A stretch of 24,650 nt of DNA from the IMG/VR virus record IMGVR_UViG_3300044955_000061, positions 1 to 24,650 of that record. The stretch is one strand, 5' to 3'. Under the pieces are notes generated by a model. That model saw only the letters and a program-made list of their open reading frames with translations. It was not told the DNA's origin and searched no databases. The position numbers and the translations under genes are program-made. The DNA is from a virus. Shown here piece after piece: positions 12,665-21,453 of the stretch (position 1 is the stretch's first letter; the number at the start of each line of letters is the position of its first letter).

Positions 12665-13771
12665 TTACGCGTGCGCTGAGGCATAGGTGGAAATCACAAT
12701 CGACCCGAAGTCTTCGACATTTGCCGAACCAGATTCAGGACTGAAACGGTTCTTTTTGATGCCGAAGATGCTGCCCGCCTCGACACCGAACTGGTTGCCG
12801 TAGTCGAACATTTCCTCGTTCCAATCGTATTTCGACGCATTGCTGGAGCCGCCGAAGGCAATCGCCGCCGACTGCGCGCCGCACAACACCGCACGACGTA
12901 CCGTGTCAATCGCAGCGCCCGACGAACTGTTGACGCCCTGGGTGACACGCTTGGCCTTGTGCAAGATGATCCCATTGTAGACGCCCAGCGCGCCGGTGAA
13001 GATCGGGTTCTTACCCACATCGCCACCTTGCATCGCGGCCTTCTGGATGTCCTGCCACTGACCAGTTCCGGTGCCTGTGCGAAGGTCCGTCACCTGGTAG
13101 TCGTGCAGGAAGGCGACGTAGTAGTCATCGCCCATCATCCTGATCGGACGAATGACCGAGCCGGTGCTTTCAGCCGTCGATGCCGTCTCAGCCTTTTCAC
13201 GCGCATAGTCCAGCAGTTCCAGCGTGAACGTGTCGGATGATCCGAGGTCTTCGTCGTTCGAATTGCCGGTGCCTGCCAGAATCTTGCGGTTCGAAGTTGG
13301 TGCCGTAACGGTGTTGTTGCCCGTAAACCGGGTGTCCGTCTGCACCGTGTTGCCGCAGATATGGTTGAAGAAACTGACGTCCATACGGTCGGCCCACCAG
13401 TCCCGCAGCCCGTCCTTGGCCTCGGTCCGAAGTGGGTACGGAACCCGCTGTTCGGTCAGCTTGCCATTGATACGAACGGCGTGACGAAGCTGGTTCACAA
13501 CGATGCTGTCGTTGTAGAACTGCAACGCTTCCTCGTTGCCTTCCAGCGTTGAATCGCCTTGGACGCCATCACCCTGCAACTGCACCCGCAGTCCATAAGT
13601 GATCTTGTCGCCTGCGCCTTTTTTGAGGTCAACATGCTCTTGAATCAGGGCGTCTTTGCCCTTGCCGATGAAGCGTCCGATGTAGGTTTGTCGGATTGCT
13701 TCATTCGCAAGCTGTTTGGAAAACAGCTTATTCGTCAGAGAGTGATTGACCCCGAATTCTGTATTAGCCAT
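12665..13771 (-). CDS. Major capsid protein, N4 gp56 family
   Basis: The start is set at ATG 13771 because GGAGG lies five bases before it; an ATG 15 bases upstream (13786) lacks a site. The 368-residue product is recognised from hallmarks of the N4-gp56 major capsid family (Phage_capsid_3/DUF4043): GAGDKITYGLRVQLQGDGVQ, GDSTLEGNEEALQFYNDSI, VVNQLRHAVRINGKLTEQRV, and DGLRDWWADRMDVSFFNH. These cover residues about 50-140 and correspond to the HK97-like fold's E-loop and spine region in this family. The protein forms the icosahedral shell. It is preceded by a scaffold gene, which agrees with separate-scaffold assembly. This is one of the firmest calls in the window. Confidence 0.92.
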   Translation of the reverse strand: MANTEFGVNHSLTNKLFSKQLANEAIRQTYIGRFIGKGKDALIQEHVDLKKGAGDKITYGLRVQLQGDGVQGDSTLEGNEEALQFYNDSIVVNQLRHAVRINGKLTEQRVPYPLRTEAKDGLRDWWADRMDVSFFNHICGNTVQTDTRFTGNNTVTAPTSNRKILAGTGNSNDEDLGSSDTFTLELLDYAREKAETASTAESTGSVIRPIRMMGDDYYVAFLHDYQVTDLRTGTGTGQWQDIQKAAMQGGDVGKNPIFTGALGVYNGIILHKAKRVTQGVNSSSGAAIDTVRRAVLCGAQSAAIAFGGSSNASKYDWNEEMFDYGNQFGVEAGSIFGIKKNRFSPESGSANVEDFGSIVISTYASAHA

Positions 13772-13868
13772 TACGGCCTCCATCATTCAGGTTGATCATT
13801 CTCCCCTTGTCGCCGGTGGATTAGCGCAGACCGTGTGACGCCCGGTCAGGCGAAGACCGATTAGGAGG

Positions 13869-14846: not shown

Positions 14847-16871
14847 CTATTGCGGATATTGAGGGGGCTGCAATTGCGCGCGGAGGATTTCCATATCCGC
14901 GCTCTGCTCGCCTGCCTGTTCTGATGTGCGCAAATCGACCATTGCCCGAAGGGCCGCGATATCGCGCTGTGTATCACTGTCGAGATACATCTTTTCGCGC
15001 TGCAACTCGCTGCTTGCGCCGATCTCAGCGATTTTCCGCGCTAGTTCCTGCTGCTGGCTTTCGCCCTTCTGCATGTCGCGCTGCGCATCGGCCCGGTGTC
15101 GCATCGTGTCGCGCATGATATCGGCTTGCGCCTTGATCTTCGCCTTGCCGAATTCGATTTCTTTCAACCCTGCCAGTGGGTCTTCCGGCTCCCCAGCAGG
15201 CTGCGTCAGGCTTTTCTTGATCGCCTCGGTCAACGCAGACGGGAACGGGCTATACTCGATGATTTCTGCCCAGACTTCAGGCGACAACTCAGTGCTGGTC
15301 AGCACTGGCATCATGTTCATGACGGTCTCCCAAACGCGTTCCTTGTTGTTCGGAGCGGTCGGGGCATCATCAATGATAACGTCATACTTCGTCGCGTTCT
15401 CATCTGCGATCAGCGGCAGATAGCGAATGTCATTCTGGTCACCGGTTATCCGCACAAGGCGACCGTCTGCAAGATGCTCCTGAATGTAGTACAGAAGAAC
15501 CTTGCCTTGATGCTTGCGATACAACCGAAGCGCATCGAACAACTGCGCCAACGTAGTCATCGCCGACTGCTTGCGCTGATATTCGAGGATTCCTGGCTGG
15601 TTCTGATCTCGCAGGCCGAGCAATTCCTGATTAACCCCGCTCGCGTCCCGGATCGACATAATTGCGAACTCGGTCAGGTTCATCATGCCCGCCGGAAACG
15701 CAGCCTGCGGCTTAGGTTGGATTTGACCTTGAGCAATCGCACCACTGTTCAGCCACGTAATACCGTCAGCCTTTGCCCAGCTTTCCTCGAACTCCTGGAT
15801 ATCGTCTACAGCGTTGCGTTCCGCCATGACGCCGCCCTTGGCGTTGCTGTTGATAATGTGGAGCGTTTGGGTCAGCCATTTGTTCGCAAATTTCTGCGGG
15901 TCTTTCATCGACTCCAACAGGCCGTACCACGTCTTTTCTTTCTCGTCATAGTACCCGGTCACAGGGTTGAGCGTGAACGCATCCTTACACGGCTGCGAGC
16001 GGGCCAACTCAACATTCCCCAGAAACGCCTGATGGTATTCATGCTTGCTCACAACGCGATGGCGAACCTTGTCGATCCCGATCAACTTCGCCACGCGGTC
16101 AAATTGGTCCTTCGGCAACTCGCCCTTTTCGCCTGTCAGCGGGTCAATGTACTCAACCCGCTTAACCTTCTCTCGCCATTGGATTTGCACGACGCGGACC
16201 ATGTTCGTCTGGTCGGCAACGTGACCGTCACCTAGCGCGTAGTCATCGCCTGCGTGGCTTGTGTTCACATGGCCGTCGTCCTTGCCGTCCAACCACAGCG
16301 CGTCCAGCTTTTCCCGGTCGTCCTCGCCAAACATGTCGGCAGCGTCGATCTTCGGGATTTCGCGCACACGAAAACGGTATCGGGTGTCCACCAAACCGCG
16401 ACGGGATGCCGAGCAATCCCAACCCATCTCAAGCGGAGATATGCGCTCAATCGAAGGCTCGCCTTCTGTGTCCGCCTCGAAGTCCAGCCGGGTTTCCGTC
16501 CACCCCATGCCGCAAACCAAGGTATCATAGAACGATTGGCTTTCTTCCTCCTCGGCCCCGCCCTGATCACGGAACCATTCAGCCGCAGCCGTGAACATCT
16601 CGTTAGGCTTGGAGTCGCCAATCTCGCGGGGGAAAAAGCGGACCTCAGTGCGATTGTTGATCTCGGAACCGGCGACAGCGTTGATAATCGTCGCCGTCCT
16701 GTTGAACGTGATCGGAACACGATTAGTCTCGGCCAGATAGTTTTCTTCCTCTGTCGTCCACTGGCTTGATCCGGCAGCAAAGCCGTAGTTATCGCGTGCG
16801 CCTTCACGCCACTGCGATTGATTGCGCCAGCTTTTCGTGACCCATTTTTTCAGGGTCTCGAAATCAGTCAT
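14847..16871 (-). CDS. Portal protein, P22-like
   Basis: The ATG at 16871 has GAAGG nine bases upstream; the TTG codon before it is not needed. The 674-residue product matches P22-type portals in length and pattern: helical N-terminus (WVTKSWRNQSQWREGARDNY), the TFNRTATIINAVAGSEINNR core helix, GMGWTETRLDFE with RISPLEMGWDCSASR, and the tunnel-loop region about ASGVNQELLGLRDQNQPGIL, QRKQSAMTTLAQLFD and KHQGKVLLYYIQEHL. The final 100 residues form a Gln/Glu/Arg coiled coil, like the P22 barrel. It forms the dodecameric ring at one capsid vertex and the docking site for terminase. It overlaps the preceding 57-residue gene by eight bases. Confidence 0.9.
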   Translation of the reverse strand: MTDFETLKKWVTKSWRNQSQWREGARDNYGFAAGSSQWTTEEENYLAETNRVPITFNRTATIINAVAGSEINNRTEVRFFPREIGDSKPNEMFTAAAEWFRDQGGAEEEESQSFYDTLVCGMGWTETRLDFEADTEGEPSIERISPLEMGWDCSASRRGLVDTRYRFRVREIPKIDAADMFGEDDREKLDALWLDGKDDGHVNTSHAGDDYALGDGHVADQTNMVRVVQIQWREKVKRVEYIDPLTGEKGELPKDQFDRVAKLIGIDKVRHRVVSKHEYHQAFLGNVELARSQPCKDAFTLNPVTGYYDEKEKTWYGLLESMKDPQKFANKWLTQTLHIINSNAKGGVMAERNAVDDIQEFEESWAKADGITWLNSGAIAQGQIQPKPQAAFPAGMMNLTEFAIMSIRDASGVNQELLGLRDQNQPGILEYQRKQSAMTTLAQLFDALRLYRKHQGKVLLYYIQEHLADGRLVRITGDQNDIRYLPLIADENATKYDVIIDDAPTAPNNKERVWETVMNMMPVLTSTELSPEVWAEIIEYSPFPSALTEAIKKSLTQPAGEPEDPLAGLKEIEFGKAKIKAQADIMRDTMRHRADAQRDMQKGESQQQELARKIAEIGASSELQREKMYLDSDTQRDIAALRAMVDLRTSEQAGEQSADMEILRAQLQPPQYPQ

Positions 16872-17037
16872 CAATCGCAGCCTTCATTTGGTCGTATTGC
16901 TCTCGCCAGTCTTGAGAAACTTTCTCGCGGACCGCCCTAATTCCGTTTGACAGACCCACCTGACCGCCGTGATCAAATTCAGCCGCAGAATAGCCATCAG
17001 ATTCGGCCTGAGCGATAAACTCATCAAACGGAAACAT
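16864..17037 (-). CDS. 57-residue acidic hypothetical protein
   Basis: ATG 17037 overlaps the stop of the spike-base-like gene (ATGA) and the frame runs 57 codons to TGA at 16864, eight bases into the portal gene. The product reads MFPFDEFIAQAESDGYSAAE then FDHGGQVGLSNGIRAVREKV and ends in KAAIDD. It is short, acidic at both ends and probably one or two helices. Its TGA lies within the start region of the portal gene, so translation is likely coupled. I do not recognise the family. Small proteins between terminase and portal exist in many phages and often have no assigned role. Confidence 0.7.
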   Translation of the reverse strand: MFPFDEFIAQAESDGYSAAEFDHGGQVGLSNGIRAVREKVSQDWREQYDQMKAAIDD

Positions 17038-17310: not shown

Positions 17311-18777
17311 TCATGCTGCCCATGCTGATGAAGGTCGTTTGCGCTTTTTCGCGCGCTTCGCTGGCTCTTTAAAGCCCGCCGAAAACGTCATGAACGCATC
17401 CGCCGCGTTGCTGTTGTCGTCGTGCAGCGGCTTGTTCCTGAAGGTGCCGCGCAATTCATCCCATTCCTTGCGGTAGTGGCGCAGGCGCTTGATGCCCTTA
17501 CCGCAGTACTTCAAGTCGAAGTCGCAGGAGGCGAACACCGTCCGCGCTGTCTCGACTGCCTGCCACTTGTCTGTGGGACGCTGGACAATCTCAGGCCGAA
17601 AGCCCAGGTCATCCATCACGCCAACCCGGCCATGCTCCAGAAACAAATCCTGGCGCTTGCCGTCATGCGGCAGGTAGTGCCTGTCAAAGCTGGCGTCGCG
17701 CTCTTTTGCCCAATCTCTCAACCAGCCCACATAGTGGCTGATATATTCTCCGCTGTTCTCGTAGTAGCCGACAAAGCGATTGCGTTCCTTGACCCGCTGG
17801 TGAAGCCAGATGCAGTTCAGGTCGTTCCTGCCTATATCCCAGAAGCTGTTGACCGGGTACATCGGATCATATTCGAAGCGCCCGATATGGCCGTGCTTGT
17901 CAGCATGGGCCAGTTGCCGCTCAAAGATTGCCCCCTCGATAGCCTGCTCGAAGGCTTCTTCCGGCGTCGCAGGGTACTCCCGCTTCATGTCGCCGCCCTG
18001 TTCACGTTCCGTCAGCAGCCACCACGCGCGCTGCTCAGCGTCAAGATCGACGCCCTGCGCCTTCAAGCTGGCGAAATAGTCTTCGTCTTCCTGTGTGGCC
18101 TCTATCAGCTGAGGAGACGCCCTGTATTCGCTCGCCGACCACCACGGGAAGAAATGGAAGCTATACCGCCCCACGCCCCGCTGCGCCTCCTGACACATCT
18201 CGTAGAACCGACCTTCTTGCCCTTCAGCCGTGGACTCGATTGTAATGTGGCCTTTCTCAGCCGCCGGGAAGGATCCGGTTACGATCTCCCGCGCCTTCTG
18301 CGGGAACTGAGCGCATATCTTGCCGAACTCCGACACATGAAGGCGCTGATACGTGCCAGAACGTGCGCTGGTCTTGACCTCCAGCGTTGACCCGTTGCTG
18401 AGGGACAACGTGTCCGCGCTATCCTTCACCGATCGCAACCGAGCCTTCAGTTGGTCCGGCAGGTTCTCATACGGGAACTTTACCTTCGTCTCAAATATGC
18501 TTTTGGCGTCGTCCAGCTTGTGCGCGATGATTGCCGCCCGCCAATTCGGGTTGAACAGACATTCATCCAGCGAAATCATGCAACACAGCGTCGTGAAACC
18601 CCGCTGCCTTGCCTTCAGCACAATATCGCGCCCCGTCAGCGCCTTAGCGAACTCCGCCTGCGCCTCGTTCATCTGGAATCGGACGCGGTGTCCGTGCTTG
18701 TCTACAATCCAATAGAGATTGTTTAGCCGCCAGTACGGGTCTAGGAACTGGTCAGCCGTCGCCGATGCGCTTGCCAT
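17311..18777 (-). CDS. terL: Terminase large subunit
   Basis: The 488-residue ATPase/nuclease drives DNA packaging through the portal. The ATPase domain shows the terminase form of Walker A, LKARQRGFTT (residues 54-63), a Walker B ending LHVSE (146-150), and the coupling motif ESTAEG (181-186). The nuclease domain has Asp314 in FWDIGRND, Asp371-acidic HDGKRQD, and the third acidic cluster DDNSNAADAF (453-462). Length and motif order are normal. Its ATG at 18777 lies 26 bases inside TerS. The C-terminal basic segment KRAKKRKRP (474-482) may contact DNA or the portal. The closest plan I recognise is the Sf6/P22-like group. Confidence 0.93.
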   Translation of the reverse strand: MASASATADQFLDPYWRLNNLYWIVDKHGHRVRFQMNEAQAEFAKALTGRDIVLKARQRGFTTLCCMISLDECLFNPNWRAAIIAHKLDDAKSIFETKVKFPYENLPDQLKARLRSVKDSADTLSLSNGSTLEVKTSARSGTYQRLHVSEFGKICAQFPQKAREIVTGSFPAAEKGHITIESTAEGQEGRFYEMCQEAQRGVGRYSFHFFPWWSASEYRASPQLIEATQEDEDYFASLKAQGVDLDAEQRAWWLLTEREQGGDMKREYPATPEEAFEQAIEGAIFERQLAHADKHGHIGRFEYDPMYPVNSFWDIGRNDLNCIWLHQRVKERNRFVGYYENSGEYISHYVGWLRDWAKERDASFDRHYLPHDGKRQDLFLEHGRVGVMDDLGFRPEIVQRPTDKWQAVETARTVFASCDFDLKYCGKGIKRLRHYRKEWDELRGTFRNKPLHDDNSNAADAFMTFSAGFKEPAKRAKKRKRPSSAWAA

Positions 18778-19198
18778 TGCCTGCGATGCTGGTCAGCAGT
18801 GCGGCCAACGGGTCGGCCACATCATGCTTGTTATGGATTTCCTGCTTTTCGCCGTACTTCTTCGGATTCATGCGAGCCAGCGCCCACTTGCGGGTATCAA
18901 TCCGAAGTCGAGACCGCTGAACATGCTCCCCGTTCAAGCGATAACCTTCGCCGTCGTCGCCCTCACGCTCCACCCAGTCGTTGGACGCGTCGTCAGCAAT
19001 CGCAAACATTTCGTCAAACAACGAGTCTGCACGCCGCTCCATCGCGCGCGCGTACTGGTCCGACAATTCTGCGTCCTCCGACACCCACTTGAGAAACGTT
19101 GACTTCGAAGGCGTCCCCTCATCGGCGCAAATAGACCGCAGGCTTTCACCCTCAGCTATCCGAGACAGAACTTCTTCGCGCTGCTTAGCCTTTGCCAA
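18752..19198 (-). CDS. terS: Terminase small subunit, Sf6-like
   Basis: The 148-residue product has an N-terminal helix-turn-helix: VLSRIAEGESLRSICADEGT, then PSKSTFLKWVSED (residues 10-42), followed by an oligomerisation region (DQYARAMERRADSLFDEMFA) and a C-terminal part that carries RLRIDTRKWALARMNPKKYG, a signature of the Sf6-type small terminase. It recognises the packaging site and regulates TerL. It starts with TTG at 19198, supported by GGAAGG eight bases upstream and lack of any nearer ATG. It overlaps TerL by 26 bases. Confidence 0.88.
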   Translation of the reverse strand: MAKAKQREEVLSRIAEGESLRSICADEGTPSKSTFLKWVSEDAELSDQYARAMERRADSLFDEMFAIADDASNDWVEREGDDGEGYRLNGEHVQRSRLRIDTRKWALARMNPKKYGEKQEIHNKHDVADPLAALLTSIAGNGKRIGDG

Positions 19199-19525: not shown

Positions 19526-19779
19526 TCCCTACCTCCGAAACAGTGGGTGCAGTCGTCGTGTGGATCGTCTTGCATGGAAATAACACACCAAAACGATGTG
19601 GTTAGTTTCTGCCGCCTTTTGGGCATGTAGCGGGCGCGCCTGAATTACGCGGGCATTTTAACGATTGCCCAGATCGCGCCGTATGCATCCGACTTGCTGG
19701 AATGGTGTTTCGCTCTCATACCGAGGACATTGACCGGGCCAACCACCCTAACGCCGTCTCCAGCGCAAACTCCTGAATC

Positions 19780-19811
19780 AAAAGCGCCCGCGACGGGTTT
19801 CGTCCGGGCGC
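19780..19811 (-). terminator. Intrinsic terminator between early and late blocks
   Basis: On the minus strand a hairpin pairs GCGCCCG (19811-19805) with CGGGCGC (19790-19784) and, after a one-base bulge on the 3' side, GACG?CGTC (19804-19801 with 19795-19792), closing a five-base loop. Four T residues follow immediately (19783-19780), then GATT. It should stop transcripts coming from the right. It lies about 48 bases past the stop of the predicted regulator and just downstream of the candidate promoter. Confidence 0.7.
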
Positions 19812-19829
19812 ACTTTCGTAGCTTGGCGA

Positions 19830-19857
19830 AAGGTAGCATATCTGGATTTTGCGTCAA
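19830..19857 (-). promoter_or_regulatory. Candidate late promoter
   Basis: The minus strand reads TTGACG at 19857-19852 (five of six against TTGACA), 16 bases of spacer, and TACCTT at 19835-19830 (TAnnnT, three of six against TATAAT). Alphaproteobacterial housekeeping promoters tolerate weak -10 boxes, so it is acceptable but not strong. Transcription would begin near 19823 and meet the terminator hairpin about 12 bases later. It begins just past the regulator's stop codon. Confidence 0.4.
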
Positions 19858-19858
19858 G

Positions 19859-20353
19859 CTAAACATGCAGCCTGTCCAGCGCGACCCGCAAGAGCCGTGT
19901 CATCCGCTGGCGCGCAGCATGCGAAGTCCTGCACCCCCGCATCTCGATCAGGTACTTGCAGTCGAGAACCACATGACTGAACACCTGCGTCATTGGCCCC
20001 GGCGACACGCTGCGCACAGCCTTTGCATAGCGCATCTTGGCTTCTGCTGTCAGGGCCGCGATCTGGCCGCAGTCCATGGACTTTTCGACATACTCCGAAA
20101 GTCCACCGCCACCCGGAAGGGCGCGCTCGTACAGGTTCAGTGCGGCAATGCCTGCGTCCTTCTGCTGTTCGGTGATAGCGCCATGTGACGCCATGCGCTC
20201 AAGCGGGTGCTGGCGCGTCTTGCGGCGTTCGCCTGGCCTTCCGTCTTTAGGGCGATGGTAGACAACGCCGAACTTCTGCGCAGCCGTGTCAGGCCCCGTG
20301 TCCGTTGTCTGGAACTCTTTCAGATCGGACGGCTTTCTGCGTGCCTTGCCCAT
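19859..20353 (-). CDS. Predicted regulator, DUF6456-like; possible late activator/antiterminator
   Basis: The 164-residue product starts at ATG 20353 with GGAGG five bases upstream. The first 50 residues are basic (MGKARRKPSDLKEFQ, RPGERRKTRQ). The rest follows the layout of the DUF6456 region found at the end of alphaproteobacterial regulators: HPLERMASHGAITEQQKDAG (residues about 49-68), LYERAL, then MRYAKAVRSVSP, VFSHVVLDCKYLIEMRG and the final LLRVALDRLHV. I judge this from pattern, not alignment. It is the last gene of the early block and lies directly before a promoter and terminator, the place where lambdoid phages carry antiterminator Q. An antiterminator or late activator role is inference. 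Confidence 0.5.
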   Translation of the reverse strand: MGKARRKPSDLKEFQTTDTGPDTAAQKFGVVYHRPKDGRPGERRKTRQHPLERMASHGAITEQQKDAGIAALNLYERALPGGGGLSEYVEKSMDCGQIAALTAEAKMRYAKAVRSVSPGPMTQVFSHVVLDCKYLIEMRGCRTSHAARQRMTRLLRVALDRLHV

Positions 20354-20981: not shown

Positions 20982-21368
20982 CTACCCAACCCGTTCCTTC
21001 CCCCCATCAAAGGGGAACCGGGCACAAGGACCACATTCACGCCTCCGTTTATCGGGCCGCCCGTATCGTGAGCCAGCCGCCTTCCCCGCTGGTAACGCTC
21101 CAGCCCCTCTTTCGAAGTCCCCGGACACCATCGCCGGTGGGGATATAAAAGGCCCGTTTATCGCTGCCGTATGCGGATCGTGACAGCAGGGGTGGGTTAT
21201 GCCCCCGGAGGTATTACAGATCGGCTCTGTCAGGCCCTTCTTGCGTTCTGTGCCCTGGATATGCCCCTGAATGGGTTTGCTCCGTTGGGCATTGCCGCCT
21301 TCAGACAGGGTTTGGCACGGGAACCCTGCGAACCGTGGGCGGATTTTGATGAGTGACACTTGAAACAT
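20982..21368 (-). CDS. Unrecognised Cys/Gly-rich protein
   Basis: The ATG at 21368 has AAGGA five bases before it; other in-frame ATG codons at 21407 lack a site. The 128-residue product opens MFQVSLIKIRPRFAGFPCQT, then is polar with cysteines spread out (ICNTSG, THPCCHD, RECGPCARFPF) and an Arg/Lys-rich C-terminus. No membrane segment. The composition is odd for this block, and codon choice looks less regular by eye, so a non-coding region with a lucky frame is possible. The segment sits between a DUF3310 gene and small early genes. A metal-binding role for the five C-terminal cysteines is speculative. Confidence 0.4.
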   Translation of the reverse strand: MFQVSLIKIRPRFAGFPCQTLSEGGNAQRSKPIQGHIQGTERKKGLTEPICNTSGGITHPCCHDPHTAAINGPFISPPAMVSGDFERGAGALPAGKAAGSRYGRPDKRRRECGPCARFPFDGGKERVG

Positions 21369-21420
21369 AACGTTCCTTGATGTATTTACTGAGTACGGGA
21401 CCGCCAAAGCCCATACCCAG

Positions 21421-21453
21421 CCCCGCAGTTAACCGCTGCGGGGTTCGGTTTTT
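21421..21453 (+). terminator. Plus-strand intrinsic terminator
   Basis: On the plus strand CCCCGCAG (21421-21428) pairs perfectly with CTGCGGGG (21436-21443) around a seven-base loop, then TTCGG and five T residues (21449-21453). The T-run is on the plus strand only; on the minus strand the hairpin is followed by GGCTGGGT. So it would stop transcripts moving left to right. The TAA stop of the DUF3310 gene lies in the loop. A minor role as RNA 3'-end protection on the minus strand is possible. Confidence 0.6.

Follow-up and report, generated by a model that had tools for sequence, protein, structure and literature searches.

The late genes of a P22-like phage are probably switched on by overriding a stop signal in their leader, a reading made without RNA, binding or reporter data. 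It is fairly likely that this switch is a Q-like processive antitermination system whose regulator is a GafZ-type protein with no relation to lambda Q. The window, meaning the whole 24,650-base stretch analyzed (one strand of a virus record), is judged from its sequence to be a P22-like phage with genes for the terminase small subunit (TerS), the terminase large subunit (TerL), a P22-type portal and a coat protein on the minus strand. The observed minus-strand order is the gene for a 164-residue basic protein (P0001; 19859–20353), which is the last early gene and the proposed late antiterminator, then a promoter-like site, a terminator, and TerS, TerL, portal and coat. TerS (18752–19198; PF20901, 2.5e-40; phrog_1482) is the first clear late gene, followed by TerL (17311–18777; phrog_2, 1.1e-27; 57.6% identity to the TerL of Octadecabacter DB virus 2), the portal protein (14847–16874; phrog_156, 1e-101) and the major head protein (12665–13786; phrog_334, 6e-100). 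A late leader of ~370 nt without a clear gene (19780–19410) lies ahead of a small ORF upstream of TerS.

The stop codon of the 164-residue gene (TAG, 19861–19859) is located just before the −35 element of the top promoter-like site of the window. The −35 element TTGACG (19852–19857, minus strand) and the −10 element TACCTT (19830–19835, inside GCTACCTT) are separated by a 16-nt spacer, and the site ranked first on both strands of a whole-window scan with a score of 9.9. Transcription is expected to start near 19823 within the leader TCGCCAAGCTACGAAAGT (19812–19829), which resembles the conserved leader of gene transfer agent (GTA) operons in the Rhodobacteraceae. The distance from the −10 to the GC-rich, 28-nt intrinsic terminator hairpin GCGCCCGGACGAAACCCGTCGCGGGCGC (19784–19811) is 18 nt, and the hairpin is followed by the T-rich tail TTTTGATT (19776–19783). 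The hairpin folds with −20.5 to −21.7 kcal/mol (z = −3.5), and 1 of 200 shuffles folded equally well. It was the top terminator of the minus strand and the second over both strands, and 19857–19784 was the best promoter-terminator pair of the minus strand. These data confirm the coordinates given in the first-pass annotation for a promoter after the regulator stop codon and for a strong hairpin with a T-run after the expected start. That annotation also had the packaging genes following without another clear promoter. TerS and TerL do follow, but other minus-strand promoter-like sites exist as far as TerL, with lower scores of 8.1–8.3.

The −10 element is weak by the E. coli consensus, and the promoter matches the strict consensus at only 8 of 12 positions. 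A generic scan of the window listed neither the promoter, owing to its weak −10, nor the hairpin, owing to its bulged stem. A GafZ-like palindrome was sought between the −35 and −10 of the window, and only 3-bp arms were found, which 70% of shuffles equaled; the binding motif may differ between species. The promoter spacers of two relatives, L062 and L185, contain palindromes with 5-bp arms (p = 0.05–0.06 each).

Profile comparison makes the 164-residue protein look like a stand-alone, highly diverged DUF6456/GafZ-type protein, a remote relative of GafZ and of the GafA C-terminal domain, and this family name replaces “unknown” for it. The earlier label “DUF6456-like” fails by hmmscan, which returned zero Pfam matches up to E = 10 and did not reach the curated cut-off of PF20057, and holds as remote homology in profile-profile comparisons (94–96%). 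There was no usable match in Pfam, NCBIfam or PHROGs and none to the Q antiterminator families in Pfam or PHROGs. The protein family matched no PDB chain, and Rfam gave no result above gathering scores. Used directly as a query against phages and viral contigs, the protein found no relative. The entry to bacterial genomes was a Paracoccus prophage relative (L062/L090; TerL 59% identity), and the search there yielded Rhodobacteraceae relatives at the level of 30–32% identity. A five-member phage family aligned with the GafA DUF6456 domain in hhalign with Prob 94.4–96.4% (P = 8.5e-8 to 1e-9) versus 0.1–4.9% for control alignments with reversed DUF6456, TerL and a Rhizobium-phage protein. The bridging short proteins L117/L118 score above the PF20057 cut-off and match both the phage family and DUF6456 at 97–98% in profile comparison. 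A profile of the phage-type members plus L117/L118 recovers the C-terminal part of GafA-sized proteins (360–430 residues) from dozens of Rhodobacteraceae genomes. P0001 was the top match of a GafA-only profile over ~12,000 ORFs, yet with an E of only 0.054, and the relationship is termed remote because the single-sequence signal is weak. Sequence identity between P0001 and GafA is very low, and the alignment covers only the C-terminal part of GafA, without its DnaA-like N terminus and omega-binding center.

The gene for the 164-residue protein is absent from most relatives with a similar TerS or TerL, and no homologue was found in Octadecabacter DB virus 2, the cultured phage with the closest TerL. 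Rhizobium phages RHph_I1_23 and RHph_Y1_10 encode a protein of 214–251 residues in the same place, which was excluded because homology was not shown (Prob only 5–6%). Matches in L098 and L100 were discarded as spurious frames. In Rhizobium phages L044 (37802–39716) and L047 (6507–7883), DnaA-C-like or GcrA-like genes and LuxR-type helix-turn-helix genes precede the late genes, as does the 214–251-residue protein, and this gene set is possibly another late regulator in the style of GafY/GafZ.

DUF6456 is the annotation of BLAST matches to Rhodobacter capsulatus GafA (PMC9638019), and the domain is the C-terminal part of both GafA and Caulobacter GafZ. GafZ of Caulobacter crescentus, a homologue of the GafA C-terminal domain, is an experimentally established, processive antiterminator (PMC11150451). 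It binds between the −35 and −10, where an element is required, is located across the operon with RNA polymerase, NusA, NusE and NusG, and lets polymerase pass both the GTA terminator and rrnB T1 (PMC11150451). The phage protein is like GafZ in its DUF6456-type domain, as inferred from remote homology, and in the proposed target, a promoter for a terminase-led structural operon; as for GafZ and the GafA C-terminal domain, packaging and structural genes lie downstream, here TerS, TerL, portal and coat. Unlike the phage gene, which encodes the C-terminal domain only, GafZ is host-encoded and has a partner, GafY. The palindrome that GafZ binds is not seen in the window, and the known Caulobacter GTA terminator is downstream of the first GTA gene, whereas the window terminator is in the leader. 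Pseudomonas aeruginosa AlpA (cited in PMC11150451) is likewise a promoter-loaded processive antiterminator, but no relation to the 164-residue protein is seen. An eLife paper cited in PMC13236601 has Bartonella GTA antitermination as its subject.

GafA controls the R. capsulatus GTA operon upstream of terS, and its C-terminal 162 residues, which match P0001 in size and profile, bind a promoter fragment with the −35, −10 and start site (PMC9638019). Unlike P0001, GafA has 382 residues with a DnaA-like N terminus and an omega-binding center, and its published role is that of an activator that works via the omega subunit (PMC9638019). The phage protein could be an initiation activator of this kind that recruits polymerase to 19857–19830, leaving the hairpin incidental or a damper of leakage. 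The weak −10 would fit, as would the ~fourfold decrease in a terminator-free GTA reporter upon gafZ deletion (PMC11150451), and an initiation role cannot be excluded. It is nonetheless unlikely to be the explanation: the omega-binding part of GafA is the central region and not the C-terminal part (PMC9638019) to which P0001 corresponds, and a hairpin at a short distance from the promoter is found in many phages and GTAs, where it is kept by compensatory changes. Antitermination by GafA itself has only been suggested, by authors who noted that GafA might have this activity too (PMC11150451).

Antitermination at the phage promoter, taken as the simplest account, would begin with constitutive initiation by RNA polymerase at 19857–19830. 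Without the regulator, polymerase would halt ~40–45 nt later at the hairpin 19811–19784. Once the last early gene supplied the 164-residue DUF6456-like protein, it would load onto polymerase at the promoter or the initial leader, the binding region of GafZ and of the GafA C-terminal domain. The loaded polymerase would then pass the hairpin and transcribe TerS, TerL, portal and coat. The loading site, read-through, processivity and timing are all inferred, and travel with RNA polymerase and Nus factors is likewise without data. The order of regulator, promoter, promoter-proximal terminator and late genes is that of lambda Q, Q21 and Q82, with the difference that no sequence relation to the 164-residue protein was found in Pfam or PHROGs. 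The likeness to Q is one of function and layout only, and that the protein works like Q is an inference.

The same trio of regulator, promoter and terminator had been proposed as something to look for in related phages, and it was found there. A promoter with a hairpin ≤50 nt downstream was detected in 5 of 32 family members (the window, L062, L107, L180 and L189) versus 0.42 expected from dinucleotide shuffles; among the ends of other genes in these loci, 2 of 268 had the pair. A relaxed −10 criterion adds L181, L185, L186 and Paracoccus phage Shpa, and the layout is found in eight further phages or prophages besides the window, with cultured Shpa among them. The leader GGCATnnTCGnAG directly follows the −10 exactly in L107, L180, L181 and L186 and with one mismatch in L185, and in all five a hairpin comes next, its tail T-rich to varying degrees. 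L179 has this leader with only a weak hairpin. Shpa encodes a homologue of the L062 protein (66.5% identity), and its promoter-like site is followed by a hairpin and the packaging genes; given the weak −10, this layout was assigned by visual inspection. The packaging genes after the module, read from translations, are of several unrelated kinds, so the module looks portable. Many of the 32 family members lack the pair, some of them possibly not being next to packaging genes, and the pair-scan thresholds were fixed with the first cases already in view. tRNA-like sequences occur in the late leaders of L062 (4941–5500) and Shpa (ends, L307/L308), after the terminator and before TerS; ARAGORN detected no tRNA in L062.

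The region upstream of the GTA terminase was examined in 85 alphaproteobacterial loci, among which the presence of R. capsulatus was not established. The combination of a promoter and a strong terminator after it was present in 62 of the 85 versus 5.7 expected from shuffles. In Paracoccus and most other Rhodobacteraceae GTAs the hairpin begins ~24–26 nt after the −10, and the conserved stretch CAwGCTrGrAGAAgTGGGC lies between the two. Stem cells in 21 GTA leaders were paired in 93.9% of cases versus 73.3% after shuffling, double changes numbered 25 versus 7.0, and stem covariation was 0.579 versus 0.193, with 0 of 500 shuffles as high. These results identify a conserved promoter, leader and covarying intrinsic terminator upstream of terS/terL in Rhodobacteraceae GTA loci (L218–L276), whose operons are of the kind under GafA control. 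A leader terminator in GTA operons is not mentioned in the GTA literature searched. A matrix of the GTA leader applied to the window ranked 19825 on the minus strand first of 49,258 positions, with 0 of 20,000 shuffles as high, and this match falls in the window promoter, precisely in the stretch that separates the −10 from the hairpin. A gap is needed to obtain the match, and the runner-up site has almost the same score.

The GTA data bear on two other explanations. The plain alternative in the first-pass annotation was that the hairpin only terminates the early operon; the promoter-like sequence would then be fortuitous and the late genes would start elsewhere. The hairpin is indeed the sole strong minus-strand terminator between the early and late genes. 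This explanation is disfavored and appears improbable, since GTA operons have the promoter and immediate terminator without a preceding early phage operon, the best promoter of the window sits between the gene end and the hairpin, the arrangement recurs in other phages, and the window leader resembles the GTA leader. The promoter and terminator could also yield a small RNA of ~45 nt that is stable and functional in its own right, given that a short transcript is predicted from the sequence anyway. Little credence is given to this idea because relatives differ freely in the sequence of the stem without loss of its pairing, as expected of a terminator, and the location next to packaging genes is kept.

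Antitermination in the phage is supported by the remote homology to DUF6456, a family that includes the antiterminator GafZ, by the recurrence of the layout in phages, by the GTA promoter-terminator pair with its covariation, and by the leader match. The Q-like reading offered at first pass gains this support, and the mechanism in this phage remains an inference. The points that count against it are the −10, poor by E. coli standards, the lack of a Pfam family by hmmscan and of a GafZ-like palindrome, the described position of the Caulobacter terminator after the first GTA gene, the absence of the GafA N terminus and center from P0001, the many family members without the pair, and the post hoc scan thresholds. 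The protein would be a phage version of an already known kind of antiterminator. The phage module is a concrete candidate for late-gene switching in alphaproteobacterial phages like this one, with Paracoccus phage Shpa and a Paracoccus sulfuroxidans prophage as named test systems.

A broader reading is only slightly favored. GafZ/DUF6456 proteins may serve alphaproteobacterial phages and Rhodobacteraceae GTAs as their general “Q”, loading at a conserved initially transcribed element between the promoter and a built-in terminator (CAwGCTrGrAGAAgTGGGC in GTAs and GGCATnnTCGrAG in phages), and activation by GafA would be at least partly leader antitermination. The shared layout suggests that domesticated GTAs inherited phage control, and through the predicted Rhodobacteraceae GTA leader terminator the unresolved mechanism of GafA can be tested directly.

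Two minor observations were made. One Rhodobacteraceae genome contains three closely related DUF6456-like regulators (L103, L104 and L105), two of them near contig ends. The strongest hairpin of the window (21346–21449, plus strand; −23.7 kcal/mol, TTTTCC tail) is located 26 nt past a promoter-like TTGAAA-17-TATTTA, antisense to the early genes, and is possibly a small antisense RNA.
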